Source of the DNA: an uncultured Blautia sp. | GTDB taxonomy: Bacteria > Bacillota > Clostridia > Lachnospirales > Lachnospiraceae | NCBI GenBank assembly: GCA_946622645.1 | Contig: CAMOQF010000011.1 | Coordinates: forward strand, 1 to 33,476 | DNA: 33,476 bases | Direction of reading: 5' to 3' | Part shown: positions 8,459-33,476 of the stretch, piece after piece | How the letters are laid out: each line of letters starts with the position of its first letter | How positions within the stretch are numbered: the first letter of the stretch is position 1 | Program-made: the position numbers and the translations under genes | The notes under the pieces: model-generated | The model's database searches: none | What the model was told of the DNA's origin: nothing | What the model saw: the letters and a program-made list of their open reading frames with translations, nothing else

Positions 8459-8460
8459 TC

Positions 8461-8739
8461 ATGGTAGTAGTGATCAATGACGACAGAGTAAGCGATGTCG
8501 AAGCATATCTTCCCGTTGCAAAAGCCTTCGCCGCCGATTCGGCAGCAAACGAAGAAGGCTGCATCAGCATGGAAGTCCTGGTCGATCCGAAGGTAGAAGG
8601 CCGTGTTCTTTATCTGTCTCACTTTGAAAGTGAAGAGGCTTTTCTGAAAAGCACGCAGGGAGCGATTTTTCATAAATGGCTTCCCGAACTGGGAAAATAC
8701 TTTATCTCCGCTGAAGACCATGTGTTCGAAGTAAAATAA
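8461..8739 (+). CDS. ABM-domain protein (putative quinol monooxygenase fold)
   Basis: A 92-residue protein resembling the antibiotic biosynthesis monooxygenase (ABM) family, a dimeric ferredoxin-like alpha/beta barrel that includes YgiN-type quinol monooxygenases. Typical traits are the N-terminal beta strand, the EGCISMEVLVDP segment, the LSHFESEEAFLKS stretch and a conserved-looking HKWLPEL near the end. It lies 2 nt after the flavoprotein stop, and its AAAGGAGG site overlaps the end of that gene, which indicates translational coupling. In an anaerobe, oxygen-dependent activity seems unlikely, so it may act on quinone-like or aromatic compounds without oxygen, or protect against them. Fold assignment is fairly firm; function is inference. 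Confidence 0.75.
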   Translation: MVVVINDDRVSDVEAYLPVAKAFAADSAANEEGCISMEVLVDPKVEGRVLYLSHFESEEAFLKSTQGAIFHKWLPELGKYFISAEDHVFEVK

Positions 8740-11603: not shown

Positions 11604-11624
11604 CCTGTCTCTCCTTTGATTTTG

Positions 11625-13067
11625 TCACCATTCAAACACTTTTCTGATCTGATCGTCTTTTTCGCCGGCTCCATAGGTGCCTGCCGGAACAGCGATCCTG
11701 TCCGGATCTTCGGCCAGGATCAGGACCCTGTCCGGAGCATCTGAAGGCGCATTTCCGATGCTTAAGATGCCGTCGGATACCGGCAGCGGTCCGCTGACCG
11801 CCTGCAGGGTCCCGTCCGCAGGGCAGAACCAGGCCGCATGCACTTCGTCGTCAAACAGGCCTTTCAGGTCGATCCTTTCTTCCGTCTCTGCCGCAAAGTA
11901 GACCAGCAGGATCTTCTCTTCACGGTTCTCCGCCGCCTGTTCATGCAGATCCAGCACGTCTTCTTCCGAAGACTGACGGAACAGCCGCTGCTGGCAGGGT
12001 ATAAAACTGTGCAGGGGATATGCCTCCATAAAGTCTCTCAGGATCTTCATCTGGCCCGATCCCTCAGACTGCAGCGCTTCATCCCAGGTTTCCCGGCAGA
12101 TCATGTTCTTTTCTTTCTGTGTGGCTGTGCACCATACGGATGAATGTCCGTAGGTATGACCGAACGCTCCGGACAGCAATGCCCAGTATGCCCTTTTTCT
12201 TACGATATAAGTGCCGTGAAAGCTGTTTTCATCCTCCACCGGCCAGGTCATGGGCATATGCTCGTAAGCCGGTTCCCCATCCCATACGGGATAAGACGGA
12301 TGATTCTTCCGCTCCTCTTCGACCAGCAGATAATTCTTCTTGAATGCTCCATGTCCGGACTGCAGCATGATAAAGCTGATCCAGGCATCCTCCTCTGTCC
12401 AGTAAGAAAAAGTAGAGCAAAGGCCGGTCTCGGCCTCATGACAGGCATGATACGTGATCAGAAGCTTTTTCCAGTCTTCATGCGCACTGTCATAACAGAG
12501 TTTATGACCTGTGAGTCCTTTGGAGAGGCCTTCGGCAAGAGAACGCCACACGGGTCGGTAGTCTTCTCCCCGGCATACGGGCATCCGGTCGCCGCCCAGA
12601 CACCAGAGGATGTTCTTCCGGTGTTTCATGCGGTCGCCCAGCCAGCAGCCATAAGCTTCCGCGTTCTGAAGCGTCACATACTTTTTGTGGGTGCCGCCGC
12701 TCCAGTCCCAGCCTACCACCAGCTCTCCCCAGCAAGGCAGAAGCAGTACATAAAAACCATATTTCTCCGCCTGGTCAAGCACCCAGTCCACATAGGAGAA
12801 ATAGGCTTCGTCCGGTTTCAGCAGGTCCTGGTCATGAAGAGCCGGAATACCGCATGGATTTTTCATTTCTTCATTAAATTCCGGATCGAGCACCACCATC
12901 TGGAGCACGGTAAATCCCTGTTCTTTGCGTGTCTGCATATAATAGTGGACATCGTCCCACTTGAGGCGTGCCGGAACCGTCCATGCGGTATCCGCCAGCC
13001 ATATAAAAGGACTCCCGTCTTCTCTTACAAAATACCTGCCGTTATCTGATATCCTGAGTCGTTCCAC
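11625..13067 (-). CDS. Apiosidase-like glycoside hydrolase (GH140/DUF4038 type)
   Basis: A 480-residue protein resembling the apiosidase-like (GH140, formerly DUF4038) TIM-barrel family followed by a small C-terminal beta domain of the putative collagen-binding type. Supporting segments are the opening ISDNGRYFVREDGSPFIWLADTAW, the WVLDQAEKYGFYVLLLPCW block and WDGEPAYEHMP. Known members remove apiose from the pectin rhamnogalacturonan II. A GTG start at 13067 is chosen because AAGGAG (13077-13082) lies 9 nt upstream and the family's N terminus begins right there. An upstream ATG at 13106 would add residues unlike the family. No signal peptide is seen, so it would act on imported oligosaccharides. 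It is paired with the GH31 gene. Confidence 0.82.
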   Translation of the reverse strand: MERLRISDNGRYFVREDGSPFIWLADTAWTVPARLKWDDVHYYMQTRKEQGFTVLQMVVLDPEFNEEMKNPCGIPALHDQDLLKPDEAYFSYVDWVLDQAEKYGFYVLLLPCWGELVVGWDWSGGTHKKYVTLQNAEAYGCWLGDRMKHRKNILWCLGGDRMPVCRGEDYRPVWRSLAEGLSKGLTGHKLCYDSAHEDWKKLLITYHACHEAETGLCSTFSYWTEEDAWISFIMLQSGHGAFKKNYLLVEEERKNHPSYPVWDGEPAYEHMPMTWPVEDENSFHGTYIVRKRAYWALLSGAFGHTYGHSSVWCTATQKEKNMICRETWDEALQSEGSGQMKILRDFMEAYPLHSFIPCQQRLFRQSSEEDVLDLHEQAAENREEKILLVYFAAETEERIDLKGLFDDEVHAAWFCPADGTLQAVSGPLPVSDGILSIGNAPSDAPDRVLILAEDPDRIAVPAGTYGAGEKDDQIRKVFEW

Positions 13068-13118
13068 TGCAGTCTTCTCCTTCCTTCCCAAGAGGAACAG
13101 CAGCAATGAATGGTCGTG

Positions 13119-19406: not shown

Positions 19407-21245
19407 ATGATATTAACGATTTATCCGATCCTGTTTTTCATATTGATCTTCTGGGGAGCCAGAAGGGAACGCGGCGATTTTTTTGTCCAGGGAAAAATGC
19501 TCCGCGCTGCCGCCTGCATCGGCGTGATCCTGCATCATCTGGCGCAGCATTCCACCGGTTATGGATCTGTCTATAAAGGTCCTGTAACGGTTTTCAACGA
19601 TCTCGGCATCGTTTTTACGGCAGTCTTCTTCTTTTTTTCCGGCTTTGGGCTGATCACCAGCGTTTACAATAAGCCGGACTATCTGAAGACATTTCTGCAG
19701 CGCCGTCTCCCCACCGTGCTGATCCCGTTCTGGTGCGTCAATCTTCTGTTGCTGCTGGTGAGAAGACTCTTTTACGGCATCCGGAGCAGCCTTCCTGATC
19801 TGCTAAAGGATCTGTCCGGGCTGACCCTTGTCGACAGCAACAGCTGGTTCATTATCGAGATCGTGCTTCTGTATCTGCTGTTCTTTCTGCTGTTCCGCCT
19901 GATCCGCAAAAAAAACGCCGCGCTCTTTCTTCTGTGTGTTGGGGTCATTCTGCTGATCCGGTATGGCTCTCTGCAAGGACACGATACCGGCGCCGCGGTC
20001 CACTGGTTCAAAGGGGAATGGTGGTACAATTCCACGATCGCCTTTGTATTCGGAGCTTTATATGCGCGTTTTCAGCAGATCGACCGGTTTTTGTTCCGAC
20101 ACGCCGGCGCTTTCTGTATCCTGTCGATCCTGCTGTTTGCTGCGGCGCTGTATGGATCTGTATACACAGTCAGGCGATACGGCTATTACGATGGAAATCG
20201 TTCTTCCGCGATGATCACCCTGGCGTCCCAGACAGCAGTCTGCCTGGTGTTTCTCCTGATGATCCTGGTCGTCAATATGAATCTTTCCATCGGTAACAGG
20301 GCTCTTCGATATGTGAGCCGAATCAGCCTGGAGCTGTATCTGATCCACGGCTGGTTTCTGGACCTGTTTTTCGATGGAATGCGCCTGAGCGATCCTCTCC
20401 GGTACGCGCTGGTGATCCTCTGCAGTCTGCTGGCTGCTTCTGTTCTTTGTCCTCCGGACCGGTGGCTGAGCAGAAAGCTGACCTCTCTTCTGACGCCCCG
20501 GCAGAAGCCCGTTGAAACACTTGAACGTGAGCTTCAGAAAAAGAGAAGAAAAAAGTGGATCCGGATCGCTGCGGGGCTGCTTCTGGTATCAGCGCTGGCC
20601 GTTCTGTTCCTGTCCGGAAGACGCTGGCTGTTTGCGAAAAAAGAATATGAAGAAGAGATGGAAGCCCTCCGTTCCGCCCGGGTCGGCGACGAAGTTCTTT
20701 GGGGTTATTATAATACGGACACCCTAAGCCCGGGTCCTGAACGGCTCACCTGGATCGTACTCCGGAAAGATGGCGATTCCGTCTGTCTTTTATCCAGGGA
20801 AGGGCTGGCCGGATCTGTCTATCATCATAAGCACGAAGCTGTTTCCTGGGAGGAAAGCGATCTGCGTCAGCTGATCAACTCTTCAGAATTCACGGATATG
20901 TTCAGCCGATATGAGCGTGAAAGCATGGTCGAAAGAGGCGGGGATCTGGTCTCGCTTCTGAGCGCCAAAGAGGCACAGACGTATTTTGATTCGGACCGGT
21001 CCCGGGAGCTGCAGATCACGGATGCTGCGGCCGCTTCGGGAACCAACATAAACCATCTCAGCAAAGACCACAACTGGGACATGAAAGGATACCGCTCATC
21101 CTGGTGGTGGCTGCGGGGAGATAACGGCGTGGAAGATATCTACGCTCCGATCGTGACGGTCGACGGAACCATTGAAAAAAAAGAAAAGAACGTCAACCGG
21201 CCAAACGGTGCCGTCCGGCCGGTGATCCGGGTGAACTGCAGATAG
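19407..21245 (+). CDS. Membrane acyltransferase fused to a C-terminal DUF6273-type domain
   Basis: A 612-residue protein. Residues 1 to about 350 form a multi-helix acyltransferase-3 type membrane domain: an early RAAACIGVILHHLAQH segment with the family histidine pair, and a late SLELYLIHGWFLDLFFDG segment. These enzymes transfer acyl groups to cell-surface glycans or similar acceptors. A charged linker and another helix (about 387-405) follow. From about 422 to the end lies a soluble domain resembling DUF6273: GDEVLWGYYNTD, LTWIVLRKDGD, WEESDLRQLIN, SLLSAKEAQTYF and WWWLRGDNG. The DUF6273 function is unknown. The start follows AAAGGAG (19394-19400) by 6 nt. It stands alone between two minus-strand blocks. 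Confidence 0.82.
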   Translation: MILTIYPILFFILIFWGARRERGDFFVQGKMLRAAACIGVILHHLAQHSTGYGSVYKGPVTVFNDLGIVFTAVFFFFSGFGLITSVYNKPDYLKTFLQRRLPTVLIPFWCVNLLLLLVRRLFYGIRSSLPDLLKDLSGLTLVDSNSWFIIEIVLLYLLFFLLFRLIRKKNAALFLLCVGVILLIRYGSLQGHDTGAAVHWFKGEWWYNSTIAFVFGALYARFQQIDRFLFRHAGAFCILSILLFAAALYGSVYTVRRYGYYDGNRSSAMITLASQTAVCLVFLLMILVVNMNLSIGNRALRYVSRISLELYLIHGWFLDLFFDGMRLSDPLRYALVILCSLLAASVLCPPDRWLSRKLTSLLTPRQKPVETLERELQKKRRKKWIRIAAGLLLVSALAVLFLSGRRWLFAKKEYEEEMEALRSARVGDEVLWGYYNTDTLSPGPERLTWIVLRKDGDSVCLLSREGLAGSVYHHKHEAVSWEESDLRQLINSSEFTDMFSRYERESMVERGGDLVSLLSAKEAQTYFDSDRSRELQITDAAAASGTNINHLSKDHNWDMKGYRSSWWWLRGDNGVEDIYAPIVTVDGTIEKKEKNVNRPNGAVRPVIRVNCR

Positions 21246-21258
21246 ACTGTGATCGTGC

Positions 21259-21292
21259 AAAAAGGCCAGGGGCATCATCAACGCCCCTGGCC
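21259..21292 (-). terminator. Intrinsic terminator, best for the minus-strand flavoprotein operon
   Basis: A perfect 10-bp stem, GGCCAGGGGC (21264-21273) and GCCCCTGGCC (21283-21292), with a 9-nt loop. Read on the minus strand it is followed by five T residues, a standard terminator 16 nt after the flavoprotein stop. On the plus strand the tail is ATGTTTCT, so it may also slow transcription from the acyltransferase gene. Confidence 0.88.
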
Positions 21293-21307
21293 ATGTTTCT
21301 ATTATCT

Positions 21308-22282
21308 TTATGCTTCTGTTGTTTTCCAAACCGGCTTGTATGCCGCGTATTCTTTTTTCTTTTCGTCCAGGAAGTCTTTCTTTTCCATGATGATCGGGAT
21401 GCAGATCCGCATCATTTCGCCGATCTCGGCGTGATGCTCGTTCAGACCGACGATCGTGTTTCTTGCACGTTTTACTTCCTCCGTCGGGAATACGATCTTC
21501 ATCTTGCCGTCAGCCATCTCGACCTTGCCGTGGCTGCCGCAGACAGCGCAGGTGACGGTGTCTGTGCCGTCCACCGTCATCAGATTCAGGTGGCAGGTGG
21601 GACATGTGCCCTCTTCTCCGAACCAGGTGGTCTCTTCGTAGGGAACACCCAGGTTGTTGGCCAGATTCTCGCCCATCTTGAAGACATCTTCCATCATGGG
21701 CGGATCCAGGAAGGGGCTGGTTTTACGGCCCTGATCGTTCGCGTTGATCTGGCCGACCACCTTCATGGCCTGGGAACAGCTGAACAGATGCATCATCGGA
21801 AGGCCCATGCCGGTCCAGTCCGGAGTCCAGGCGCCGCCGACTGCGATGTAGCTGACCCAGCGGTCTTTGAAATAACGCTCATCCAGAAGCGGACGTCCGT
21901 CTGCTTTTCTCTTTTCCTGTTCGTCGATCATGGAAGCACGGTCATGCGCTGCGCCGAAACGGTCCGTGATATTTTTCAGCTGGCCGACGATACCCACCGA
22001 ATAGACCGGAGCCACGATGATGATGCCGTCGGCGTCCAGGATCTTTTCTTCGACCATCAGATAGTCATCTTTGATCCAGCATTTGATCTTCCCGTCGGGC
22101 GCTTTGCTGCACGCGCCGCAGCCGCGGCACTGTCCGATGTCCAGTGTGACGGTGTTGAGAAATTCGACTTCTATGTCTTTGCCGGATGCCTTTGCGGCGG
22201 CTTCGACGCCCATCAGAGCCTGCTTACAGTAAATGTCGCTGCGCTCGTTTTTTCTTCCCATTGAAATGCCAAGAACTTTCAT
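21308..22282 (-). CDS. Iron-sulfur flavoprotein with rubredoxin-like ribbon (second paralog)
   Basis: A 324-residue protein with the same domain order as the one at 7487-8458. The N-terminal flavodoxin-type start is KVLGISMGRKNERSDIY. The cysteine cluster C52, C55, C58 and C68 (C-x2-C-x2-C-x9-C) fits an Isf-type [4Fe-4S] site. Near the C terminus are two CxxC knuckles in TCPTCHLNLM and VTCAVCGSHG. The start at 22282 has GGAGG 10 nt upstream and begins at the first strand of the fold; the reading that begins at 22399 runs through a promoter. It has its own promoter but follows the oxidase-like gene in the same direction by 120 nt. A role in electron transfer or reduction of an organic substrate is inferred. 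Confidence 0.82.
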   Translation of the reverse strand: MKVLGISMGRKNERSDIYCKQALMGVEAAAKASGKDIEVEFLNTVTLDIGQCRGCGACSKAPDGKIKCWIKDDYLMVEEKILDADGIIIVAPVYSVGIVGQLKNITDRFGAAHDRASMIDEQEKRKADGRPLLDERYFKDRWVSYIAVGGAWTPDWTGMGLPMMHLFSCSQAMKVVGQINANDQGRKTSPFLDPPMMEDVFKMGENLANNLGVPYEETTWFGEEGTCPTCHLNLMTVDGTDTVTCAVCGSHGKVEMADGKMKIVFPTEEVKRARNTIVGLNEHHAEIGEMMRICIPIIMEKKDFLDEKKKEYAAYKPVWKTTEA

Positions 22283-22308
22283 CTCGCGATATCCTCCAAT
22301 CTGCGAAT

Positions 22309-22362
22309 AGCGTGTACGCTGTACCTGGTTCCATGATACAAAACCTTGTCCGGCATTGTCAA
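22309..22362 (-). promoter_or_regulatory. Promoter and possible operator for the second flavoprotein gene
   Basis: On the minus strand a perfect -35 TTGACA (22357-22362) and the -10 TATCAT (22333-22338, five of six) are spaced 18 bp. A short inverted repeat, AGCGT/ACGCT (22309-22320), lies just downstream, close to the expected transcript start, where a repressor could bind. This promoter separates the flavoprotein gene from the upstream oxidase-like gene, so it can be induced separately. Confidence 0.65.
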
Positions 22363-22402
22363 CGTACATGATTTCCGCATAAAAGAGGAAACAGGGCATC
22401 TC

Positions 22403-23290
22403 CTATCTTTTATGGATCACGGAAGCATCCATTTTATCCAGACGATAGCAGCCTGTGAAGGACATGGCTTTCTTCAGTTCGTCCGTCAGCTTCCGGATAT
22501 GGGCAGCCATAGCCGCGGCGCCTTCATTTTTGATGATGGGCATAAACGGTCTGCCTACACAGACGCCGGCCGCTCCCAGCGCAAGCGCTTTAAAGGCATC
22601 CATGCCGGTGCGGATCTCGCAGTCGACAAAGACCGGAACCTTTCCTTCCGTTACGCGGATGATCTCCGGCAGAAGCATGACCGGAGGAACCGCATAGGTG
22701 ATCCGGTTGTTATGGTGTGAGAGAAGCATTCCGGCCGCGCCTGCTTCCAGGACCTCGTTGGCATCGTAGATACTCAGCACTCCTTTGGGGATGACCGGCA
22801 GCTTCGAAAAATCGCAGATCTGACGCAGCTCCTCCGTCGTCATCGGAGCCATGACATCCTCAAAGACAAGATCCGCCGATCCATCGTTGGAGAAAGGATG
22901 GTCAATGTCGATCCCGACTGCCAGCAGATTGTGCGAAACCGCATGCTCGATCTTTTTATAGATCTTATCGCGATCCTTATATGGTTTGATGATCTCTACG
23001 AGAGAGGCGCCCGTGCCTGCCATCATCTCGATCTCGGGCTCTTCAGCCATGCCGTACCATAACACGGCGTCCGCCTGAGCCGCTCCTTCGGCATACGCCT
23101 TTGAAGCCCCTTGCCCCACGAACTCTTCCAGATGAGAAAGAGCTGCCGTCATGATGGGAGTTGAAAATTTCTTTCCAAACAGTTCAAACGACGCGTCCGC
23201 AAAAGCAGAATTCATATAGCGTGTTTCTATAAGCAGCGAATTCAGATATTCTCTTGTTATCTCGTTGGAATTACCGGTTGCTTCTGCCAT
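22403..23290 (-). CDS. FMN-dependent alpha-hydroxy-acid oxidase/dehydrogenase-like protein
   Basis: A 295-residue TIM-barrel protein resembling the lactate/glycolate oxidase superfamily. Retained landmarks are the strand-5 lysine K169 in PVIPKGV, the catalytic-type histidine H193 and arginine R196 in SHHNNR, R227 in VDCEIRTG, the KALALGAAGV helix and a GRPFM phosphate-site end. The usual motifs are SNHGGR and DGGVRRG, so the active-site loop has diverged. It is also shorter than typical members of about 350 residues. The second ATG (23290) is preferred since AAGGAGG lies 8 nt upstream; the first is only 2 nt away. It follows the Dabb-type gene by 39 nt. The substrate is unknown; type 2 isopentenyl isomerase-like proteins share this fold. 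Confidence 0.72.
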   Translation of the reverse strand: MAEATGNSNEITREYLNSLLIETRYMNSAFADASFELFGKKFSTPIMTAALSHLEEFVGQGASKAYAEGAAQADAVLWYGMAEEPEIEMMAGTGASLVEIIKPYKDRDKIYKKIEHAVSHNLLAVGIDIDHPFSNDGSADLVFEDVMAPMTTEELRQICDFSKLPVIPKGVLSIYDANEVLEAGAAGMLLSHHNNRITYAVPPVMLLPEIIRVTEGKVPVFVDCEIRTGMDAFKALALGAAGVCVGRPFMPIIKNEGAAAMAAHIRKLTDELKKAMSFTGCYRLDKMDASVIHKR

Positions 23291-23329
23291 GTTCATATCC
23301 TCCTTCTTTCACAGCAAACCCTGTCTGTC

Positions 23330-23614
23330 TCAGTCGTCGCAGTCAAAGATCGCCTTCTTTGCGATGATGCCGCCGTATTGTAATTTCCACCTGAGATGCG
23401 GTTCCGAGACATCGTAAGCCGGGAGGGCCTCCCGGTCCATATCCATGATGATCATCATATCATAGCGGTTCGGACGGTCTGATGAAGACAGTTTGATCTC
23501 CACTTTTTTTATTCCCGGTATCTGCAGCGTTTCTCTGAAAATGCCATAGACCGGTTCTTCAAGGGATGCCGTGTCTGTTCCTTCTTCGAACTTCACAATA
23601 ATATAGTGTTTCAT
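23330..23614 (-). CDS. Dabb (stress-responsive dimeric alpha/beta barrel) domain protein
   Basis: A 94-residue protein resembling the Dabb family, a dimeric ferredoxin-like fold related in shape to the ABM family. Features are the N-terminal strand KHYIIVKFEEG, the helix and the IPGIKKVEIKLSSS region, and a YDMMIIMDMDREALPAY segment. Such proteins occur in stress responses and as cyclases or decarboxylases in aromatic and polyketide metabolism. It begins 36 nt after the GH3 gene and precedes the oxidase-like gene, all in one direction. GGAAGG lies 9 nt before the ATG. The function is unknown. Confidence 0.72.
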   Translation of the reverse strand: MKHYIIVKFEEGTDTASLEEPVYGIFRETLQIPGIKKVEIKLSSSDRPNRYDMMIIMDMDREALPAYDVSEPHLRWKLQYGGIIAKKAIFDCDD

Positions 23615-23650
23615 ACACGCTGTCCTTCCATTTGAGACGGTCCTTCCGGT

Positions 23651-25930
23651 TTAATCCGGTTCATTGATCTTTGCTGTAAGAGCAAGAAGCTGGTCATATG
23701 TCATCTCTCCTGCGCCAAAGCTCAGCATGGTCCTCAGAGGCATATACTGCATCATCGCCCGGCTCATTTCATCCGAGATCGCTTCTGACGCCGCTTCTCC
23801 CTGATCCTTTCCCTGACTGGCAAACTCTTCCATCATCTTCTGCAGGATCGGCCCGAAGATCCTCATGGCCTTCGGATTTTTCTCAAGATCCATAAATATG
23901 GTATCCGGGTCGACCGGATCCAGCGGTTCCGGAACGCTTCCAGTCACTTTTACGGACTGGCAGAGGACGATGTCACGGCTGCTGCGTCCGATCTGGATGC
24001 TGTAATCGCCGTCAGCGACAAACCAGTCATGAAGCCTGACATTCCAGTACGCAAAAGCTCTCTTGTCCAGTTTGAAGGCGACCGTCTTTGTCTCACCCGG
24101 AGCAAGCTCCACTTTTTCAAAGCCTTTCAGTTCCCGCACGGGACGGAAAACGCTGCACACGGGCGCCCCGACATACAGCTGAACCACTTCTTTTCCGCTT
24201 ACGCTGCCGGTATTTGTCACATCCACGCAGACATCCAGCGTCTGCGTATCATCGATCTCAACCGCCCCGAGACGGAGATTGCTGTACGTAAAGGTCGTAT
24301 AGCTTAAACCAAACCCGAAGGGGAACAGGACCTCCATCTTTTTCTTGTCATAATAACGGTACCCTACAAAGACGCCTTCATTATAGAGCGCTGTATTCCC
24401 TTCTCCCTGATAGGACAGATAAGAAGGATTGTCTTCCAGCCGGATCGGGAAGCTTTCCGGCAGACGTCCGCACGGATTCACTTCTCCCCACAAGACTGCT
24501 TTTGTAGCAGCTCCGACAGCCTGTCCTCCCAGATATCCTTCCACCAGGCCTTTCACGCAGTCGATCCAGGGCATCTCCACAGGAGCCCCGTTGTAAAGAA
24601 CGACTACCGTATTGGGATTTGCTTTGGCTACCCTCTCGATCAGTTCCACCTGACATCTGGGCATCCGCATATGTGTCCGGTCATAGCCTTCGCTCTCAAA
24701 GCTGTCCGGAAGGCCGGCAACGATCACGGCTTTGTCGCAGAGAGCCGCTGCTTCCACAGCTTCGGAGATCAGCTCTTCATCCGGCTCCTCATTTACAATA
24801 TCATAGCCTTTGGCGAAGATGGTATTCCCGTTTCCTTCCAGCGCGTCCGCAAGACTCTCCACGCGGAAACTGTTGATATGAGAGCTTCCGCCGCCCTGGT
24901 ATCTTGGCTGGAACGCAAACCTGCCGATCACGGCGATCTTCTCCTCTTTTCCGAAAGGAAGAACGTCGTCATCGTTCTTCAGGAGCACCATGCATTCCGC
25001 CGCCAGTTTTGCTGCAAGCTGATGCTGTGCTTCCAGGTCCCACTCTGTATCAGGTTTACGGTTGGAGATATAGCGGTCTATGATATTCAGGATACAGCGG
25101 ACCGATTTATCCACCGCTTCTTCGGAAAGCGTTCCGTTTTTAACAGCCTCTACGATCCGTGCATCGTTGGCGCCGCCGCTTGACGGCATCTCCAGATCCA
25201 GGCCGGCTGTCACGCCTTTTACGCGGTCGCTTACAGCCCCCCAGTCGCTCATCACATATCCGTCAAAGCCCCATTCATCCCGAAGGACTTCTGTAAGGAG
25301 CCAGTGGTTCTCCGAAGCGTAGACCCCGTTCACTTTATTGTAGGAACACATGACCGTCCAGGGATGGGCTTTTTTAACAGCCGTTTCAAAAGCAGGCAGA
25401 TAGATTTCCCGGAGGGTCCTCTCATCCACCACGCTGTCCGAAGACATACGTCTGTGCTCCTGGTTGTTGGCCGCAAAATGTTTGATGCTCGTTCCGACAT
25501 TCCGGCTCTGGACGCCCTCTATCAGAGCGGCGGCGAGTTCCCCTGCCAGAAGAGGATCTTCGCTGAAATACTCAAAGTTTCTCCCGCAGAGCGGAGATCT
25601 CTTGATGCAGACAGCAGGACCCAGGATCACGCTCAGATCCTCATGCTGACAGGCATCTCCTATCCCTTCGCCGATCTGCCGGAGAACTTCCCGGTCAAAG
25701 CTGGCTGCCGTCGCGCTGCCTGCCGGAAAACAGACTGCCTTTATACTGTCGTTGATCCCCAGATGATCTGCCTTGTCATCCTGCTTGCGAAGACCGTGGG
25801 GGCCGTCGCTCATCATGGTCGCAGGGATCCCAAGGCGCTCTATCGCTTTGGTATGCCAGAAATCAGCACCTGATAAAAGAGAGGCTTTCTCTTCCAGGGT
25901 CATTTCAGATATGAGTTTCTCAATATCCAT
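23651..25930 (-). CDS. Glycoside hydrolase family 3, beta-glucosidase type
   Basis: A 759-residue cytoplasmic enzyme with no signal peptide. The domain order is a TIM barrel with KHFAANNQEHRR and the nucleophile D229 in VMSDWGA; an alpha/beta sandwich with the SFESEGYDR motif, where an acid/base glutamate is expected (E412 or E414); and a fibronectin III-like domain at about 565-655. An extra helical tail of about 90 residues follows. Members release terminal beta-linked glucose or xylose from oligosaccharides or aryl glycosides. AAGGAGG precedes the ATG by about 11 nt. It starts 36 nt after the last ABC transporter gene, so it probably acts on the imported compound. Confidence 0.93.
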   Translation of the reverse strand: MDIEKLISEMTLEEKASLLSGADFWHTKAIERLGIPATMMSDGPHGLRKQDDKADHLGINDSIKAVCFPAGSATAASFDREVLRQIGEGIGDACQHEDLSVILGPAVCIKRSPLCGRNFEYFSEDPLLAGELAAALIEGVQSRNVGTSIKHFAANNQEHRRMSSDSVVDERTLREIYLPAFETAVKKAHPWTVMCSYNKVNGVYASENHWLLTEVLRDEWGFDGYVMSDWGAVSDRVKGVTAGLDLEMPSSGGANDARIVEAVKNGTLSEEAVDKSVRCILNIIDRYISNRKPDTEWDLEAQHQLAAKLAAECMVLLKNDDDVLPFGKEEKIAVIGRFAFQPRYQGGGSSHINSFRVESLADALEGNGNTIFAKGYDIVNEEPDEELISEAVEAAALCDKAVIVAGLPDSFESEGYDRTHMRMPRCQVELIERVAKANPNTVVVLYNGAPVEMPWIDCVKGLVEGYLGGQAVGAATKAVLWGEVNPCGRLPESFPIRLEDNPSYLSYQGEGNTALYNEGVFVGYRYYDKKKMEVLFPFGFGLSYTTFTYSNLRLGAVEIDDTQTLDVCVDVTNTGSVSGKEVVQLYVGAPVCSVFRPVRELKGFEKVELAPGETKTVAFKLDKRAFAYWNVRLHDWFVADGDYSIQIGRSSRDIVLCQSVKVTGSVPEPLDPVDPDTIFMDLEKNPKAMRIFGPILQKMMEEFASQGKDQGEAASEAISDEMSRAMMQYMPLRTMLSFGAGEMTYDQLLALTAKINEPD

Positions 25931-25965
25931 TCTCTATTATATCCTCCTTTCATACTGAAAAAAGG

Positions 25966-26832
25966 TTATTCCACCGTGCTGAGATCCCATGCCTCATGAA
26001 TCTTGGGCACATCGCTGATCAGACGGCGCGTATAGGGCGCTTTCGGCGTAAGGATCACTTCGTCCGCAGAACCGTGCTCCACAAATTTGCCGTGTTCCAT
26101 GATATATACAGTGTCGGAAATATAATATGCCAGACCGATATCATGGGTGATGAAGATGACCGTCATCCCGATCTCGTCACGGAGGTTCAGCAGCATATCC
26201 AGGATCGTGGCTCTGGAGCAGGCATCGATCATCGACGTAGGCTCGTCCGCCAGGAGGATCTTCGGCTTCAGCAGGAAGATGCGGGCGATCATCAGACGCT
26301 GCATCTGGCCGCCGGAAAGCTCAAAGGGATATTTGTTGGTAAGCTCCGCAAACTTCAGGTTTACAAAGCTGCAGGCCTCGGTCATCATCTCCGTCTTCTT
26401 TTCCATGGGAAGGCTTTTCCCGCCGGTCATGTTGATGCAGTCCAGAAGGACCGTATCGATCTTGTTGAATACGTTGAACGAAGAAAACGGATCCTGAAAG
26501 ATAGCCTGAATGTTTTTCCAGTATTCTTTTTTCTTTTTTCGTGTGGAAATATCACGGGGAGCTCCTCGGAAGAAAATCTCTCCTTCGGAGACCGGCAGCA
26601 GCCCCAGGAGCATCTTGGACAGGGTGGTCTTTCCGCTGCCGCTCTCTCCCACGATACTGACCAGTTCTCCCTCCCGGAATTCAAAGTCCACATGGTCCAC
26701 AGCCACATTCTGTTTGCTGCCCGATCCGAAGATACGGGTGACGCCTTTTCCGCTCAGGCAGAGCGGATTCTGCGAAACATCCCGGCGGCGGTCCAGACTG
26801 ACGGTACTGGTGTTGTCATTGTCTGTCTTCAT
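25966..26832 (-). CDS. Opp/Dpp-type ABC transporter ATPase (OppF/DppF-like)
   Basis: A 288-residue nucleotide-binding subunit. Visible are Walker [10 protein letters not shown], the Q-loop region around [11 protein letters not shown], the signature LSGGQMQR and Walker [10 protein letters not shown] followed by MID, then the H-loop FITHDIG. It pairs with the OppD-like subunit to drive import through the two permeases. It is shorter than many OppF proteins and lacks the C-terminal cysteine motif seen in its partner. The gene overlaps the upstream ATPase gene by 17 bp, and its GGGAGGTG site lies inside that gene. Confidence 0.93.
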
Positions 26833-27835
26833 TCGCGTACACCTCCCTCAGATGTTCTACAGAATGACCGCACCGGTAAGTCCTTCCTTCTTCTCCGAAT
26901 TCCATGATCGGATAAGAATTGTACTTACAGGACGGCATCGCGTATTTGCAGCGTTCCGCAAACCGGCACCCTTCCGGCGGATGTTTCAGGTTGGGCGGCG
27001 TACCGGGGATCGCGATCAGCTTGTTGGATCTGGTTCCGTCCTCCGGAACCAGGATCGACCGCATCAGGCCCCTGGAATACGGATGTACGGGGTCGAAAAC
27101 CATCTCCTTGGCACTGCCTCTCTCCACGATCTGTCCCGCATACATGACCATGATATCATCGGTCACATTATATAAGAGCGGAAGCTCATGGGTGATAAAG
27201 ATCATGGATTTGATAAATCCTCTGTCCATCATCTCCCGCAGCATCTTGATGACGACCTTCTGGCTGGTCACGTCCAGCGCCGAGCTTGGCTCGTCCGCGA
27301 TCAGGACCTTCGGGGAAAGGATCGTGGAAATAGCGATGACGACACGCTGTTTCATGCCGCCGGACAGTTCCACCGCGTACCGGTCCAGGGCTTCCTTTGG
27401 CAGATGCAGCTCTTCAAACCTCTTGACGGCCATCTCCTTGATCTGCTTTTTATCCGCTTTCGGGTCATGCGCCCGGATCACATCCACGATAAAATCCGAG
27501 ATCCTTCTGGTCGGGTTCAGCGCATTCATGGCTGCCTGGGGAATATAAGCCACATCGGATCCCAGAACGTTCTTTCGAACGGTGTCCGGGTCCATTCCGG
27601 AAATGTTCTTGCCGTCCACGATGATCTCCCCGCTCATATAATGGAGCGGCGGGAAATAATAACCCATCAGGCTCAGAGCCAGAGTGGATTTTCCGCATCC
27701 GCTCTCGCCGGCGATCCCGAGGCTCTTCCCTTCCTCGATGGTCAGGGAGACATGGTCCACCGCGTAGACGTCTTCATGAAAGCGGGTGATATATTTTGTT
27801 GTCAGTTCTTTGACTTCCAGCATTACTTTCGCCAT
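26816..27835 (-). CDS. Opp/Dpp-type ABC transporter ATPase (OppD/DppD-like)
   Basis: A 339-residue nucleotide-binding subunit: Walker [13 protein letters not shown], signature LSGGMKQR, Walker [13 protein letters not shown] and H-loop FITHELPLL. The C terminus holds the oligopeptide-transporter extension with [11 protein letters not shown], a further cysteine in MPSC and RCGHS, which may bind an iron-sulfur cluster as in related OppD/DppD proteins. It works as a heterodimer with the OppF-like protein. AAGGAGG precedes the start. It follows the permease gene by 12 nt. Confidence 0.93.
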
Positions 27836-27847
27836 ATCGTCCCCTCC

Positions 27848-29095
27848 TTAATCACGCAGCGTCGGATTGAACACCTGGTCGAGGCCTGTGTTCATCAGAT
27901 TCAGCGAGAATGATATCAGCGTGATCATCAGGATCACGGGGAAATACGCCCACCAGGAGCCGTTCAGATGCGCTGAATACAGCATCGCCCAGTTCATCAT
28001 GAGGCCCAGGGTCGGCACCTCCGTCGTCTTAGGCCCGAGGCCCAGGAGGGAGAGCTGCGCTTCCGCAAGGATCCCGCTGGAGACCTGCAGGATAAACGCC
28101 ATGACCACATAGCTGGCAATGTATGGCAGGATATCGGTCGCCAGGATCCGGAACAGTCCGTGCCCGGAAAGTCTTGACAGATTGACATGGTCCCTGTTCC
28201 GCAGCGAAATGACCTGGGAACGGACAGACCTTGCCGTCCACGTCCAGCTGGTAAGACCGATGACCAGAGCCACGACCGGCGCGCCTCTCTTATCCTGACC
28301 GATCGAATAAGAGATCAGGATCAGAAGGACAAATCCGGGAATGACCGTGAAAATATTGGTGATGAACATGATGATATCATCCACCAGGCCGCCCAGGTAT
28401 CCGGACAGAAGGCCCAGCAGAAGGCCGATCACCGTTGCGACCGCTCCGGCGATCAGACCGATGAAGATCGATGTACCGGCAGCGGATACAAGCTCCTTCA
28501 GAACGTCCCGGCCAAAGTTGTCTGTTCCCAGAACCAGGTTTTTGGTGTTGGGAACGTCCTTCACATTCACATAGTCCTCGGTTCCGATGGTCGCGACCAC
28601 CTGTTCTTCTCCGGAGGAGTCTTTTTCGGTCACGGTCATCTTCCCTGCGGATCCAAGGCTTCCGAGCGAAGCATTCAGACGCTTGTAATAGTTTCGTTCC
28701 GCCTTGGTCATCCCTGCCGGACGTGCTGTCTCGTCGTAATTCTCTTTCCAGACCGCAAGCAGCGCGTCCGTATCCGACAGATCCAGGCCGCTCACATCGA
28801 TCTCCATGGCTGACAGCCAGTCTGCCATCTTCTGCCGGTCCGCTTCCTTCAGGACGTTGCCAAGGCGTTTGACCGCCGCGTCCGGAAGCTTCAAGGTTTC
28901 CGTCTCCGTTGTCACTGTGTCATAAACAGACACATAAGTGCCGGGCTCCGCAAAAGTACCCACGCCGATCATCTCCAGGGGGTTTCCCGGATTGATCAGA
29001 GGATAGATGATCAGCAGCAGAAGGATCCCGACAAAGATGATAAAGCCTGCCACAAATTTGGAAGAATGGAAGATCTGACGCAATGTGTTTTTCAT
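27848..29095 (-). CDS. Opp/Dpp-type ABC transporter permease (DppC-like) with a large extracytoplasmic insert
   Basis: A 415-residue membrane subunit. After the first helix (about 13-34) there is a long soluble stretch to about residue 185, then the family motif [16 protein letters not shown] and five further helices with the coupling-loop region ([22 protein letters not shown]). Typical DppC/OppC proteins are about 290-310 residues, so roughly 100-120 residues are inserted on the outer face. The ATG at 29095 is preferred; the alternative at 29119 is a TTG without a ribosome site. AGGGGGG lies upstream. It follows the DppB-like gene by 16 nt and forms the pore with it. Confidence 0.9.
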
Positions 29096-29111
29096 CTTTT
29101 CTTCCCCCCTC

Positions 29112-30116
29112 TCAGTCAAGCTGCGCGGCTTTTACCCGCGGGTCGATGAATCCGTAGATGATATCCAGCAGGAAGCTCAGCACCAGGACCATCAAGGTGA
29201 TGATCAGAGTGGTGGCCGAGATCAGCGGATAGTCTCCGCCGGAGATCGCGGTAAACATCGTGCTCCCAAGGCCCGGATAGCTGAAGATGATCTCTGCCAC
29301 CAGAGCGCCGCCGATCATGGTACCGATGGACATCGCAAGGCCTGTCACCTGCGGAAGCATGGCGTTCCGGAACACATAGCCGACGATCTTACGGTCCTTG
29401 ATCCCCAGGAAACGGGCATATTTGACATAATCCGCGTTCAGTTCATAGATGGACATGGAACGCATGCCGACCGCCTGACCGCCGATGGAGATCAGTACGA
29501 TGCTCCAGAAGGGCAGCTGGTAATGCGCGATCACGGATTTGACGAAATCCCAGCTGAAGTTCGGGATCATGTCATAAGCGTAGCCGCCCGACGTAGGTGC
29601 TATTTTCCACTTGACGGCAAACAGCACCAGCATGATCACCGCCATGCCGAAGGCCGGGATGTTGCTCATGAAAAGCGCCATGGGAAGAAGGACCTTGTCA
29701 AAGCCCTTACGTATATAGGCTGCCAGTGCTCCCAGCAGATTGCCCAGAAGCCACCCTACGATGATCGCAGGCAGCTGCAGGGCAATGGTCCAGCCCAGGG
29801 AGCTTGCCAGAATATCACTCACTTTTCGTGGATACTGGCTGAAGGAGGTTCCCAGATCTCCTTTAAACAGATTGCCGACAAAGATAAAAAACTGCTCGAT
29901 CATCGGCTTGTTGGTGCCGAATTCTTCCTGATACTTTTCGTAGATCCGCTGAGAAGCGCTGGCGTCCGTCACGCCCTGGGCCATCTTGCCCGTAATGGCG
30001 GCAACCGGATCGTTCGGCATCAGACGCGGAAGAACAAAATTCAGGATGACAGCCACAACAAGCGTGATCAGAAACCAGATGATCTTTTTTCCAAAGTATT
30101 TCCGATACCCTTTCAT
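29112..30116 (-). CDS. Opp/Dpp-type ABC transporter permease (DppB-like)
   Basis: A 334-residue membrane subunit with six helices. The N-terminal helix is followed by the DppB hallmarks [12 protein letters not shown] and [11 protein letters not shown], then [20 protein letters not shown]. The coupling-loop region is [26 protein letters not shown] and the end is YGFIDPRVK. Together with the DppC-like subunit it forms the import channel. GAGG lies 7 nt before the ATG. It is the first gene after the intergenic hairpin that separates it from the binding-protein gene. Confidence 0.93.
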
Positions 30117-30191
30117 GCCTGCACCTCTTCTGTATGATTAGCTGGTTTTATTGTATCTGCGCGTTCGGTTACAGATACGGTTCTTTCACTG

Positions 30192-30226
30192 AAAAGCGGC
30201 CATGCTTCCTGAAGAAGCATGGCCGC
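30192..30226 (-). terminator. Intercistronic hairpin between binding-protein and permease genes
   Basis: A perfect 13-bp stem, GCGGCCATGCTTC (30196-30208) and GAAGCATGGCCGC (30214-30226), with a 5-nt loop. On the minus strand it is followed by four T residues. It sits about 50 nt after the binding-protein stop and before the permease gene. It most likely acts as a leaky terminator or 3'-end stabiliser so that the binding protein is made in excess over the membrane parts. Confidence 0.8.
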
Positions 30227-30276
30227 ATGCCCCGCCTGTTTCTATACAAGTCTGAGGGCTGAAGCTGTGACTTTTA

Positions 30277-32076
30277 TCAGCCTACCAGTTCCAGATCATA
30301 CAGAGCAGCGATGCCATAGCCATCGGTGCAGTCTGCGGGCGGAATGTTCCTGCCATCGCCCTCTTCCGGATAGTTGGTCCATACGCTCTCATTGACAGCG
30401 TGGAACACAGCCGGACGATACATCAGGGAGAAGCTCGGAACTTCTGTCAGATAAATCTGAATAGCTTCGGTGTACAAAGCTTTCAGTTCTTCAGGATCAG
30501 AGGTAAGCGGGATCTGTTTTACGATCTCGGTAGCGCGGTCGTTCTTGTACTGGCCCCAGTTGCCTGTCCAGTTGTTCTCGATGCCTGCCAGATCGCCATC
30601 CAGGAACTGACGTACACGGCCCCAGGGCATGGAGGGTCCGGCACCGTCCGGAGACCACATAAAGATGTCATACTCGGTCTGGTTCGGGTTGGTGAAGACG
30701 GTCTGAACGGTATCCCACTCGGGGAACAGTGTGGTGATCTCAACGCCGATGTTCTTGCCTGCTGCAGCAACCACTTCCATAGCTGCCATCCAGTCGGTCC
30801 AGCCGTTCGGGCATACAGCGTTCAGGGAGATCTTTTCTCCGTTGTATTCACGCCAGCCATCGCCGTCAGTATCGGTAAGGCCTGCCTCATCGAGGAGTGC
30901 GTTTGCGCCGTCGATGTCATTGCCTGCCCACTGCAGATCAGCTACTGCCTCATGATCATACAGGGCCTGCTCACCTTCGGTCGGGTTCATCAGGGAACGA
31001 GGAACGTCTGCGAAGGACGGGCTCTGGTTGGTCATAGCGTTTGCGATGATGGTGTCATAGTCCACTGCGATCGCGATTGCTTTACGAAGAGCGGTGTTCT
31101 CAGCCAGTACCGGATTGTTCATGTTGTACCATGCGGTCGGCATGGTCAGGCATACGCCGTACGGAGCTTCTTCCATATAAGTGGAGATCGGAAGATCCTC
31201 TTCCAGCCAGGTGTTCTGGATGTTCGGAAGGAACTGCTGGTCAACGTCGATCTCGCCGGCCTTGAAAGCAACTTCAGTAGCCGCATTGTCAGCATAGATG
31301 GTGTGAGCGATGTACTTCGGAACCGGAAGCTTGCCCCACATGGAAGCATCCTGGCCCCAGTAGTTGTCGTCACGGATCAGGACGACCTTCTGGTCATCAT
31401 CGAAGTATTTGGTGTACGGGCCGGACCATACAACATCCTCTGCCGCATCGTTCATGATGGCGGTCGGATCGTTGTTGTTCCGCTCGCAGACTGCATCGAT
31501 CCAGCCTGCCTGCGCGATCAGAACTGCGCTCAGGAAGTCATTGACCTTCAGCGGATTGACGGGAACGCCATCCTCTGTCACGGCTGCCTTGATGACAAAG
31601 GTCTTGTCATCAACTGCTTCGATGCTGTCGATATACGGGCCATAGCCGGTGCCTACGCCGTTGGCGATCTCTACGCCGATGTCAAAGGTACGGATGACGT
31701 CCGCGGAGGTGACATCGGATCCATCGGACCATTTGGCTGCGTCTTTGATCTTGACGGTCATCTCGGTCAGATCATCGTTCCAGGCAAAGTCGCCGTCTGC
31801 AAGAAGCGGTGTCAGAGAACCATCCAGGAAATTGTACATGTACAGGGTCTCAAACATAAGGGTACGGCTGCCGATCAGCTGCGGTGTGGTAGCCATAGCG
31901 TTGTTCTGGTTTGTGCCGATGGGGTTGTAGCTGTTGACCGTGCCCCACTGCTGTCCGCCGAAATACAGGGTTTCTTCTCTCGGAAGCTGGACATCCTCAG
32001 CCAGAACAGAGACTGTGCTCATCATTCCGGTCAGAGTGATGGCTGCCGTGAGTAACAAAGCAGTAAATTTCTTCAT
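30277..32076 (-). CDS. ABC transporter substrate-binding protein, family 5 (Opp/Dpp type)
   Basis: A 599-residue exported binding protein. A signal peptide ends near VSVLA-ED (about residue 26), and no cysteine lies there, so the usual Gram-positive lipobox is missing. The mature part has the family-5 features: a TPQLIGSRTLMFETLYMYN-type opening, LTEMTVKIKDAAKWSDG, SADVIRTFDIGV and ALRKAIAIAVDYDTI. Family-5 proteins bind peptides, but a subset binds cello- or other oligosaccharides, and the GH3 neighbour favours a sugar ligand here. AAGGAGG precedes the ATG. It is first in the transporter operon. How it stays at the cell surface is unclear. Confidence 0.9.
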   Translation of the reverse strand: MKKFTALLLTAAITLTGMMSTVSVLAEDVQLPREETLYFGGQQWGTVNSYNPIGTNQNNAMATTPQLIGSRTLMFETLYMYNFLDGSLTPLLADGDFAWNDDLTEMTVKIKDAAKWSDGSDVTSADVIRTFDIGVEIANGVGTGYGPYIDSIEAVDDKTFVIKAAVTEDGVPVNPLKVNDFLSAVLIAQAGWIDAVCERNNNDPTAIMNDAAEDVVWSGPYTKYFDDDQKVVLIRDDNYWGQDASMWGKLPVPKYIAHTIYADNAATEVAFKAGEIDVDQQFLPNIQNTWLEEDLPISTYMEEAPYGVCLTMPTAWYNMNNPVLAENTALRKAIAIAVDYDTIIANAMTNQSPSFADVPRSLMNPTEGEQALYDHEAVADLQWAGNDIDGANALLDEAGLTDTDGDGWREYNGEKISLNAVCPNGWTDWMAAMEVVAAAGKNIGVEITTLFPEWDTVQTVFTNPNQTEYDIFMWSPDGAGPSMPWGRVRQFLDGDLAGIENNWTGNWGQYKNDRATEIVKQIPLTSDPEELKALYTEAIQIYLTEVPSFSLMYRPAVFHAVNESVWTNYPEEGDGRNIPPADCTDGYGIAALYDLELVG

Positions 32077-32099
32077 GGGATCCTCCTTCTCAACAAGGT

Positions 32100-32202
32100 G
32101 ACCGGAACATAATCACCAATTTCCGGTCTGTAAGTGGCGGGTTTCTATGCAAAATACTACCATATTTCCTTTTTAATACAATAGAATTAACTAATTAATT
32201 AG
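32100..32202 (-). promoter_or_regulatory. Promoter region, AT palindrome and leader hairpin of the transporter operon
   Basis: On the minus strand TTGTAT (32176-32181) and TAGTAT (32154-32159) with a 16-bp spacer form a modest promoter. Immediately upstream is a perfect 12-bp palindrome, CTAATTAATTAG (32191-32202), in very AT-rich DNA. Downstream, in the predicted leader, GACCGGAA (32100-32107) and TTCCGGTC (32121-32128) can form an 8-bp stem with a 13-nt loop just before the ribosome site. The palindrome could bind a regulator, though LacI-family operators usually have a central CG. Confidence 0.4.
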
Positions 32203-32244
32203 ATTATATCCAAATGTTCAAGATGTTTTTTGTGCTATTTATAC

Positions 32245-32275
32245 AAAAAGGCACGGCTGTCTGCCGTGCCTTTTT
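32245..32275. terminator. Bidirectional intrinsic terminator after the LacI-type gene
   Basis: A perfect palindrome: A5 plus GGCACGGC (32245-32257) against GCCGTGCC plus T5 (32263-32275), with a 5-nt loop. Both strands end in a T run. It begins 3 nt past the regulator stop codon, so it ends that transcript and insulates the transporter promoter. Confidence 0.93.
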
Positions 32276-32277
32276 CT

Positions 32278-33288
32278 TTACGTTTCGGTATGGATGGTCC
32301 TGACACTCTCCTTCTCCTGGAAGTGTCCGGTTACAATTGAAATATGCTTTTTCGTATACTCACCGTTCATCCTGCTGAAAAGGGCGTGAACGGCTTTTTT
32401 TCCCATCTCTTTCACATCCAGTTTGTAGACAGTAAAATCCTCTTCCCGGCCGGACACATAGCCGGCAGTCCCGAATTTGACGATGGAAACATCTTCGGGA
32501 CATCGGAGGCCTTTTCTGGCCAGGTGCCGGCTCAGAAGATCCGCAACTGCATCCGATCCGCAGACATAGGCGGTCGGAGCATCTTCCGGAATGATCTCAA
32601 GGTTCTCCAGATCCTGTCCTGTGATGACCCACTCTTTCCGGACCGGGAGCCCATGCTCTGTCATGGCCCGTACATACCCCAGGTATTGTTCCATATAAAT
32701 AGGAGTTTCCAGGATCCGTCCGATAAAGGCGATCTGTGTATGGCCCCGGTTTAAAAGATAATTGGTGATCTGACAGGCTGCATAAAAGCCATCCGATATG
32801 ATGCAGTCAGCATTGCTGTTGTCCGGCATAAACCCCAGATACACCAACGGTACTCTGCTCTTGTGGGAAAGCATCTCCAGATATGGTCTGTCGAATGAGC
32901 CCAGCAGGATCAGTCCATCCATATTTTCTTCCCGGATCACCATGGGAACGCTGCACTTTTTTTCCATCTGCAGGCCGATAATCTCCGTCGTTGCATTGCA
33001 CTTGCAGCGGGCACATTCATCCACAACGTGCTGCAGGATCATTGCATAGAAGGGTTCTGTCTGCGACAGATATTCTTCCGGCACCAGTACGCCCACGCTG
33101 AAACTGTCCCGTTTTCGTTTTCTTCGCTCTCCGACAGGCTCATAACCCATCTCACGCGCAAGTTCTTTGATCCTTGAACGCATGCTTTCCGAGACACCGC
33201 TGTACCCGGCAAGAGCTTTCGAAACCGTCACAGTACTGACGCCGGCTCTGGCTGCTATATCCTTCATTCTGACCTGCTGATCACCCAT
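32278..33288 (-). CDS. LacI-family transcriptional regulator
   Basis: A 336-residue repressor. Residues 7-60 are the LacI DNA-binding domain (MKDIAARAGVSTVTVSKAL, then a hinge near ELAREMGYEP). The rest is a periplasmic-binding-protein-like sugar sensor with the usual VGVLVPEEYL opening and the NMDGLILLGS and NADCIISDGFYAA segments. Many family members control sugar uptake operons, and this gene sits just upstream of the importer and GH3 genes in the same direction, so it is the best candidate regulator of that locus. GGAG lies 10 nt before the ATG. The effector is unknown but is likely a sugar from the imported glycoside. Confidence 0.92.
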   Translation of the reverse strand: MGDQQVRMKDIAARAGVSTVTVSKALAGYSGVSESMRSRIKELAREMGYEPVGERRKRKRDSFSVGVLVPEEYLSQTEPFYAMILQHVVDECARCKCNATTEIIGLQMEKKCSVPMVIREENMDGLILLGSFDRPYLEMLSHKSRVPLVYLGFMPDNSNADCIISDGFYAACQITNYLLNRGHTQIAFIGRILETPIYMEQYLGYVRAMTEHGLPVRKEWVITGQDLENLEIIPEDAPTAYVCGSDAVADLLSRHLARKGLRCPEDVSIVKFGTAGYVSGREEDFTVYKLDVKEMGKKAVHALFSRMNGEYTKKHISIVTGHFQEKESVRTIHTET

Positions 33289-33408
33289 ATTATATAATCT
33301 CCGTAGAAAGTATGCCAGCCGCTTTGATCTTTGTAAATCCTGCCAATAACCGACCTGTACTGTCCTGCTGTTTTACAGGTGTACAAACCCGTCAGCCGTA
33401 ACATTTTA

Positions 33409-33437
33409 ATAATACCATATCCGCCTGTTTTTGTATA
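33409..33437 (-). promoter_or_regulatory. Candidate promoter for the LacI-type gene
   Basis: On the minus strand TATACA (33432-33437) and TATTAT (33409-33414) are spaced 17 bp, matching four and five of six consensus bases. It would give a leader of about 115 nt before the regulator start. The remaining sequence from 33289 to the window end shows no further gene. Confidence 0.45.
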
Positions 33438-33476
33438 CATCAGAAGTATCAGCGTTTTTTCTTTACAGCCGGTTGA

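Follow-up and report, generated by a model that had tools for sequence, protein, structure and literature searches.

Ten genes on one strand of an uncultured Blautia genome: an Opp-type importer with a beta-glucosidase and, probably as a separate unit, a predicted flavone reductase-class flavoprotein

Ten genes follow one another on the minus strand of contig CAMOQF010000011.1 (GenBank assembly GCA_946622645.1), from an uncultured Blautia sp.; the whole stretch analysed, 33,476 nucleotides (nt) long, is referred to here as the window. A first-pass annotation had read these genes as a possible complete locus for the import and processing of a plant glycoside and its aglycone. The observation itself is confirmed, all ten open reading frames (ORFs) being found on that strand, at the coordinates originally given, within positions 21308–33288; the interpretation is partly supported. 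In our view the ten genes are best explained as a local grouping: an importer of a known kind together with a GH3 beta-glucosidase, two genes that lie mostly elsewhere in relatives (a small Dabb-like gene and FMN_dh, for a flavin mononucleotide (FMN)-dependent dehydrogenase), and one reductase of the flavone reductase (FLR) class, here termed FLR-A, which would be transcribed on its own. These are probably two or three largely independent units placed head to tail, and not one conserved system.

The comparison of gene order in other genomes points to this division. Orthologues of the solute-binding protein (SBP) of the importer were found, at 54–96% identity including fragments, in 11 genomes besides the window's own (116 searched, own included). 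Nine of the 11 loci were fetched, those of G062 and G039, where the orthologue lies at a contig end, being omitted, and six could be read past the last importer gene, OppF. The importer genes recur together in these relatives, and GH3 follows OppF in two of the six readable loci (72% identity in G036, 66% in G031), whereas none of the six has Dabb, FMN_dh or FLR-A in that position. Searches starting from the other genes gave a similar picture. No match to GH3, FMN_dh, FLR or SBP (E 1e-5) was present at any of 20 fetched Dabb loci, where the neighbours are variable. Within four genes of the other FLR-A copies, none of seven contexts contained a window-type SBP, OppB/C, GH3, Dabb or FMN_dh gene; some of these contigs are short (3.8–8 kb), and an FLR-A fragment in G050 was omitted. 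At the 79 called FMN_dh loci, 40 of which are flanked by four called genes on each side, GH3 or OppC occurs within four genes at two (L029 and L087), and FLR, Dabb or ABM at none. One conserved ten-gene locus was thus rejected, the ten-gene order being present in no other genome examined. The claim of a complete locus had been made to depend on the Dabb, oxidase and flavoprotein genes staying with the transporter and GH3 genes; they largely lie apart.

The features of the window that concern us are as follows.

32278..33288, minus strand: LacI-family regulator (PF00356 and PF13377, both above cut-off)
32245..32275, minus strand: terminator-like palindromic hairpin 3' of LacI, 13 pairs (found on the plus-strand listing)
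30277..32076, minus strand: SBP, solute-binding protein family 5 (SBP_bac_5, PF00496)
30196..30226, minus strand: strong hairpin in the gap between SBP and permease genes, 14 pairs, loop of 3, TTTT
29112..30116, minus strand: OppB-type permease (PF00528; 67–91% identity across nine relatives' loci)
27848..29119, minus strand: OppC-type permease (PF00528; probable ATG start at 29095 from the gene caller)
26816..27835, minus strand: OppD-type ATPase (PF00005, PF08352)
25966..26832, minus strand: OppF-type ATPase (PF00005; 17-nt overlap with OppD)
23651..25930, minus strand: GH3 beta-glucosidase (PF00933, PF01915, PF14310; match to PDB 7ms2)
23330..23614, minus strand: Dabb-like small protein (PF07876, 19.6 bits against a cut-off of 25)
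22403..23296, minus strand: FMN_dh, FMN-dependent dehydrogenase or alpha-hydroxy-acid-oxidase-like protein, short form (PF01070, 167 bits)
22333..22362, minus strand: promoter-like TTGACA-18-TATCAT, 50 nt upstream of the FLR-A ATG
21308..22282, minus strand: FLR-A, FLR-class flavoprotein, flavone reductase homologue (match to PDB 7d38)
21264..21292, minus strand: terminator-like hairpin 3' of FLR-A, 13 pairs, 9 of them G-C, TTTTT

The gaps from OppB through FMN_dh measure, in order, 16, 12, −17, 35, 36 and 33 nt; the earlier statement that those between DppB and the oxidase-like gene are 39 nt or less therefore holds, the largest being 36 nt. Wider gaps separate LacI from SBP (201 nt), SBP from OppB (160 nt) and FMN_dh from FLR-A (120 nt). 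LacI is probably a separate transcript, given the terminator-like hairpin directly 3' of it, and the hairpin between SBP and OppB is likely to act as a partial terminator that would leave SBP in excess. The G+C content by gene is 0.51–0.55, the small Dabb gene (0.47) being the exception, and this near-uniformity gives no clear compositional sign of a recent foreign insert.

The first unit would consist of LacI, SBP, OppBCDF and GH3. Genes for a family 5 SBP, a pair of permeases and a pair of ATPases stand in that order. The closest solved structures to the SBP are of beta-glucan or mannoside binders, PDB 2o7i, 4jsd and 4pfu, of which 4pfu is named a mannoside-binding protein and 2o7i is, we assume, the same protein as 4jsd. 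In 4JSD and 4JSO the cellobiose/beta-glucan binding protein tmCBP of Thermotoga is in complex with laminaribiose and laminaripentaose, respectively; its gene shares an operon with those of an ABC transporter and an endoglucanase (PMC3850815, partial text). The window SBP aligns with this T. maritima family 5 protein over residues 31–574, and both operons pair an ABC transporter with a glycoside hydrolase, which is an endoglucanase in Thermotoga and GH3 in the window (PMC3850815, partial text). A cello-oligosaccharide locus (PMC12838199, partial text) was also considered as a model for the importer and set aside as a different type of transporter, because it has no nearby ATPase gene and is powered by MsmK.

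The GH3 protein has the GH3 N, GH3 C and Fn3-like domains of a BglB-like enzyme and matches thermostable beta-glucosidase B (PDB 7ms2) over its full length with 896 bits. No signal peptide is apparent by eye at its N-terminus, MDIEKLISEMTLEEK. Assignment as an exo-alpha-(1->6)-L-arabinopyranosidase was rejected by model rule, since the best NCBIfam model, NF041610, scores 845.1 bits against a curated cut-off of 1300. Genes for GH2 proteins with mannosidase Ig domains lie nearby in three of the six readable relatives (G031, G014 and G089), and in G036 the gene 3' of GH3 is a convergent gene of the mannitol-dehydrogenase family. Together, the nearest solved relatives of the SBP and these GH2 neighbours suggest that the importer carries gluco- or manno-oligosaccharides rather than a phenolic glycoside. 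Homology and a gene order common with relatives establish the parts of this unit; its substrate and regulation are predictions. It would import short beta-linked plant oligosaccharides, most likely of the gluco- or manno- series, from which GH3 would cut terminal glucose in the cytoplasm under the control of LacI. The earlier proposal of an importer with GH3 thus stands, as the combination recurs in two relatives, but its extension to all ten genes as one locus does not. A LacI 44% identical to that of the window precedes the orthologous SBP in G050 (locus L180). A LacI operator common to the transporter orthologues was sought and rejected: five SBP upstream regions aligned poorly and their palindromes differed.

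The second unit would be FLR-A. Its product had been labelled an iron-sulfur flavoprotein, a class whose Methanosarcina type is, we presume, marked by a 4Fe-4S cluster motif. FLR-A has a Cys-rich stretch, but its Fer4_2 match is below the cut-off, and the sole significant solved relative of the protein is FLR (PDB 7d38, 7d39, 7d3a and 7d3b; E 1.7e-34), which has the same stretch; the label is not supported, and an annotation that can be assayed takes its place. The four entries 7D38, 7D39, 7D3A and 7D3B are FLR of Flavonifractor plautii, an enzyme that reduces the C2–C3 double bond of flavones and flavonols (PMC7862272, here and below from a partial text). Its structure is described with FMN, and the main text, so far as it was available, contains no words beginning with iron, Fe-S or cysteine (PMC7862272). 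In a pairwise search FLR-A is 32.2% identical to FLR over 295 columns (E 2.8e-39), with FLR residues 3–277 aligned, about 89% of 310; it thus lies within the limits used to search for FLRs in section 8 of that paper, namely identity of at least 30%, coverage of at least 80% and E of at most 1e-10 to F. plautii FLR (PMC7862272). All 11 further putative FLRs assayed there converted apigenin (PMC7862272, section 8).

The two proteins are alike in length, in belonging to the FMN_red fold family, in a C-terminal extension with CPxCH...CxxCG, and in seven key residues: D103, G106, V144, G146, W149, H271 and I275 of FLR are retained in FLR-A. The substitutions G106A, W149A, H271A and I275A left FLR with strongly reduced activity or dead (PMC7862272, section 9), and all four of these activity-critical residues are present in FLR-A. 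The comparison covered FLR residues 3–285; at 324 residues FLR-A is long enough for the essential C-terminal tail of FLR. The alignment supports the assignment of FLR-A to the FLR class of ene-reductases, predicted to act on flavonoid aglycones. As an FMN ene-reductase of this class it would most likely reduce the C2–C3 double bond of a flavone-like enone, serving as an electron sink or for detoxification. For FLR, the electron transfer chain is described as still to be explored (PMC7862272, section 8).

FLR-A likely starts at the ATG at 22282; a longer ORF starting at 22399 is disfavoured because it would cross the promoter-like region. The element there, TTGACA-18-TATCAT, has 11 of 12 matches, is the best of 14 sites in 21200–33476 and was equalled by none of 1000 mononucleotide shuffles. 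A sigma-70 element with 11–12 of 12 matches is present in five of eight FLR-A upstream regions, those of the window, L171, L175, L176 and L177, and the window flank aligns with the other copies only over 26 bases at the gene start. A copy 93% identical, elsewhere in the same genome (contig C107), stands beside an MsrA-like gene, recognised from its sequence; in L171 FLR-A follows a gene for an MFS transporter, and in L178 an AraC-type gene lies within four genes. With its promoter-like site and terminator, FLR-A looks like an independently transcribed unit.

Between the two units lie the Dabb-like gene and FMN_dh. The PF07876 match spans nearly the whole domain, but its 19.6 bits fall under the gathering score of 25; the Pfam Dabb model gave no match in the whole of the window's own genome at E 0.001. 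A remote Dabb member is plausible. Relatives of the protein occur in 3 of 64 genomes of the genus and 22 of 397 of the family, own included in both; of the 21 other genomes, G314, G124 and G342 were left unfetched. Generic matches to ABC ATPases occur at several further Dabb loci.

The class assignment of FMN_dh is clear, PF01070 scoring 167.1 bits against a gathering score of 24.9. The protein, of 297 residues, is without the N-terminal part of the alpha-hydroxy-acid oxidases. Its Lys, His and Arg, which we take to have the roles of the alpha-hydroxy-acid-oxidase active-site residues, are conserved in an alignment of 71 family sequences, the window's included and rows shorter than 280 residues excluded. 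With plant glycolate oxidase and lactate oxidase it has in common PF01070 and these three residues, from the C-terminal half of the active site, and it departs from these enzymes in its shorter N-terminus and in a Lys that replaces the Tyr of glycolate oxidase near the YKDR segment. Assignment as an L-lactate oxidase was rejected (TIGR02708, 75.2 bits against a curated cut-off of 645.5). Relatives were found in 21 of the 116 genomes, own included, and at 80 loci in named records, mostly with titles of rumen or gut Clostridia and four of Treponema. A codon-scored gene caller, trained on the genes of the window and rough in distant genomes, made calls at 79 of the 80 (none in L081), some of them fragments. 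Eight further FMN_dh loci have only ABC-ATPase matches of 25–30% within four genes and were excluded from the counts. In the species of the window, Dabb and FMN_dh are probably read through from GH3; their location elsewhere in most relatives makes passengers more likely than pathway steps.

Several observations weigh against this account. Many contigs are short, and just six transporter loci are readable beyond OppF. The gaps of 36 and 33 nt suggest co-transcription of GH3, Dabb and FMN_dh in the window. The two FMN_dh homologues of G062 (61% and 36% identity) both stand at the tails of Opp-type operons, neither of which is an orthologue of the window operon: in L029 an operon of SBP, OppB, OppC and two ATPases (24–37% identical to those of the window) is followed by a gene for 410 residues and, 24 nt on, by FMN_dh, with a 30% identical GH3 further on, and in L022 the 36% homologue lies 45 nt after an Opp-type ATPase gene. 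FMN_dh may therefore sometimes belong to such operons. As for FLR-A, no good promoter-like element is present in three of the eight upstream regions (L168, L178 and L179); at L179, FLR-A closely follows an FAD-oxidoreductase-like gene and has SnoaL within four genes. FLR-A is, moreover, just 32% identical to FLR. Its differences at E91, K92, S147 and T279 and at FMN-phosphate residues and their loop leave room for a substrate other than a flavone. The T279 position is Met in FLR-A and Thr in a second homologue in the window (7493–8458); in FLR, T279 is stated to be a probable relay to the C4 carbonyl of the flavone (PMC7862272).

These differences in FMN-contact residues are consistent with an alternative in which FLR-A, instead of being a flavone reductase, is a generalist FLR/WrbA-like flavoprotein that acts on quinones or other electrophiles and is kept for stress or detoxification. 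The MsrA-like gene beside the 93% copy and the MFS transporter gene ahead of FLR-A in L171 fit this alternative, as do the five FLR homologues of the genome, from which a division of functions can be argued. Against it stand the retention of all four activity-critical residues and the conversion of apigenin by every one of the 11 homologues assayed (PMC7862272), and we regard it as possible rather than probable.

Tight spacing, ribosome-binding-like sites and the two G062 operons that end in FMN_dh homologues could alternatively mean that FMN_dh, perhaps together with Dabb, contributes to the function of the importer operon, acting for example on an alpha-hydroxy acid or on the sugar. L239, where the Dabb gene overlaps a GH31-like gene on the same strand by 4 nt, could be taken in the same sense. 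The absence of both genes from the six readable transporter orthologues and the varied neighbours at the 79 FMN_dh and 20 Dabb loci make this unlikely.

Still less likely is a single operon for the import of a flavonoid or phenolic glucoside, from which GH3 would free an aglycone to be processed by Dabb, FMN_dh and FLR-A. Besides the membership of FLR-A in the flavone reductase class and the tight gaps as far as FMN_dh, such an operon could draw on other flavonoid-type genes of the genome, which has two CGDB genes, one of them in L246 (1929–8239 of contig C88), where C-glycoside deglycosidase (CGD) alpha/beta-type genes occur with two Gfo/Idh-like oxidoreductase genes and a large AraC-type gene. 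L246, in part by sequence recognition, resembles a DgpABC or C-deglycosylation cluster. It could also draw on the association of FLR paralogues with Opp genes or CGD pairs (PF19906 with a TIM-barrel partner) in the genus. Of the 22 called loci fetched in the genus for FLR genes of other types, six have an Opp SBP or permease gene within four genes, four the CGD pair, seven SnoaL and two GH3, compared with OppC at one, GH3 at two and neither CGD nor SnoaL at any of the 79 FMN_dh control loci; several further homologues were left unfetched and L206 has no FLR gene call. The FLR loci and the control loci differ in taxonomic make-up, and the former are phylogenetically redundant, so this pattern is a lead and not a test. 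Against the operon, its order was seen in no other examined genome, with Dabb, FMN_dh and FLR-A mostly apart; a separate promoter-like element precedes FLR-A; and the resemblance of SBP and GH3 is to proteins of the beta-glucan type. The absence of any match to phloretin hydrolase (PF18089) in the genome shows little, as the control genomes gave none either. The idea that redox proteins act on an aglycone is therefore rescued only in part, through the homology of FLR-A to an enzyme class that reduces flavonoids, gene order lending it no backing; comparison between genomes here corrects an attractive operon model. The organism may well process glycosides of the flavonoid type, though probably through other loci. 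A lineage-specific recruitment of FLR-A, FMN_dh and Dabb behind a beta-glucoside importer and GH3, giving a new locus for flavonoid-glucoside uptake and reduction in which FMN_dh would supply electrons to FLR and Dabb, a small alpha/beta-barrel protein, help to open the ring of the reduced aglycone, is very improbable.

Several genomes of the genus have multiple FLR paralogues; some of these recur in clusters, either alongside Opp and SnoaL genes or alongside CGD pairs, and such clusters offer leads to what FLR-class enzymes reduce and where their electrons come from. In the window itself, the second homologue (7493–8458) is 25% identical to FLR, below the limits given above, and is directly followed by a gene for a small ABM-fold protein, the two spanning 7493–8739 on the plus strand; the pair is also found in L192 (G025, contig C118), with ABM at 54% identity. 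An FLR paralogue lies in a cluster with Opp SBP and permease genes in L169 (4520–9597 of contig C52 of the same genome), L187, L189, L190, L191 and L193, five of the six with SnoaL. L169 also has phosphotransacetylase, ACP and ChsH2-type zinc ribbon genes by Pfam, with look-alikes in L190 and L191. Such clusters perhaps degrade an imported aromatic or polyketide-like compound.

Elsewhere, FLR paralogues lie within four genes of CGD alpha/beta-type genes (PF19906) in L194, L196, L198 and L199, the last two with ribose-type binding-protein genes. In L200 (731–5495) and L201 the FLR paralogue adjoins a gene for a PFL-like glycyl radical enzyme and its apparent activating enzyme. Finally, a GH31 gene and an apiosidase-like (PF13204) gene adjoin each other at 9579–13106 on the minus strand of the window, a possible pair for apiose or plant glycosides.

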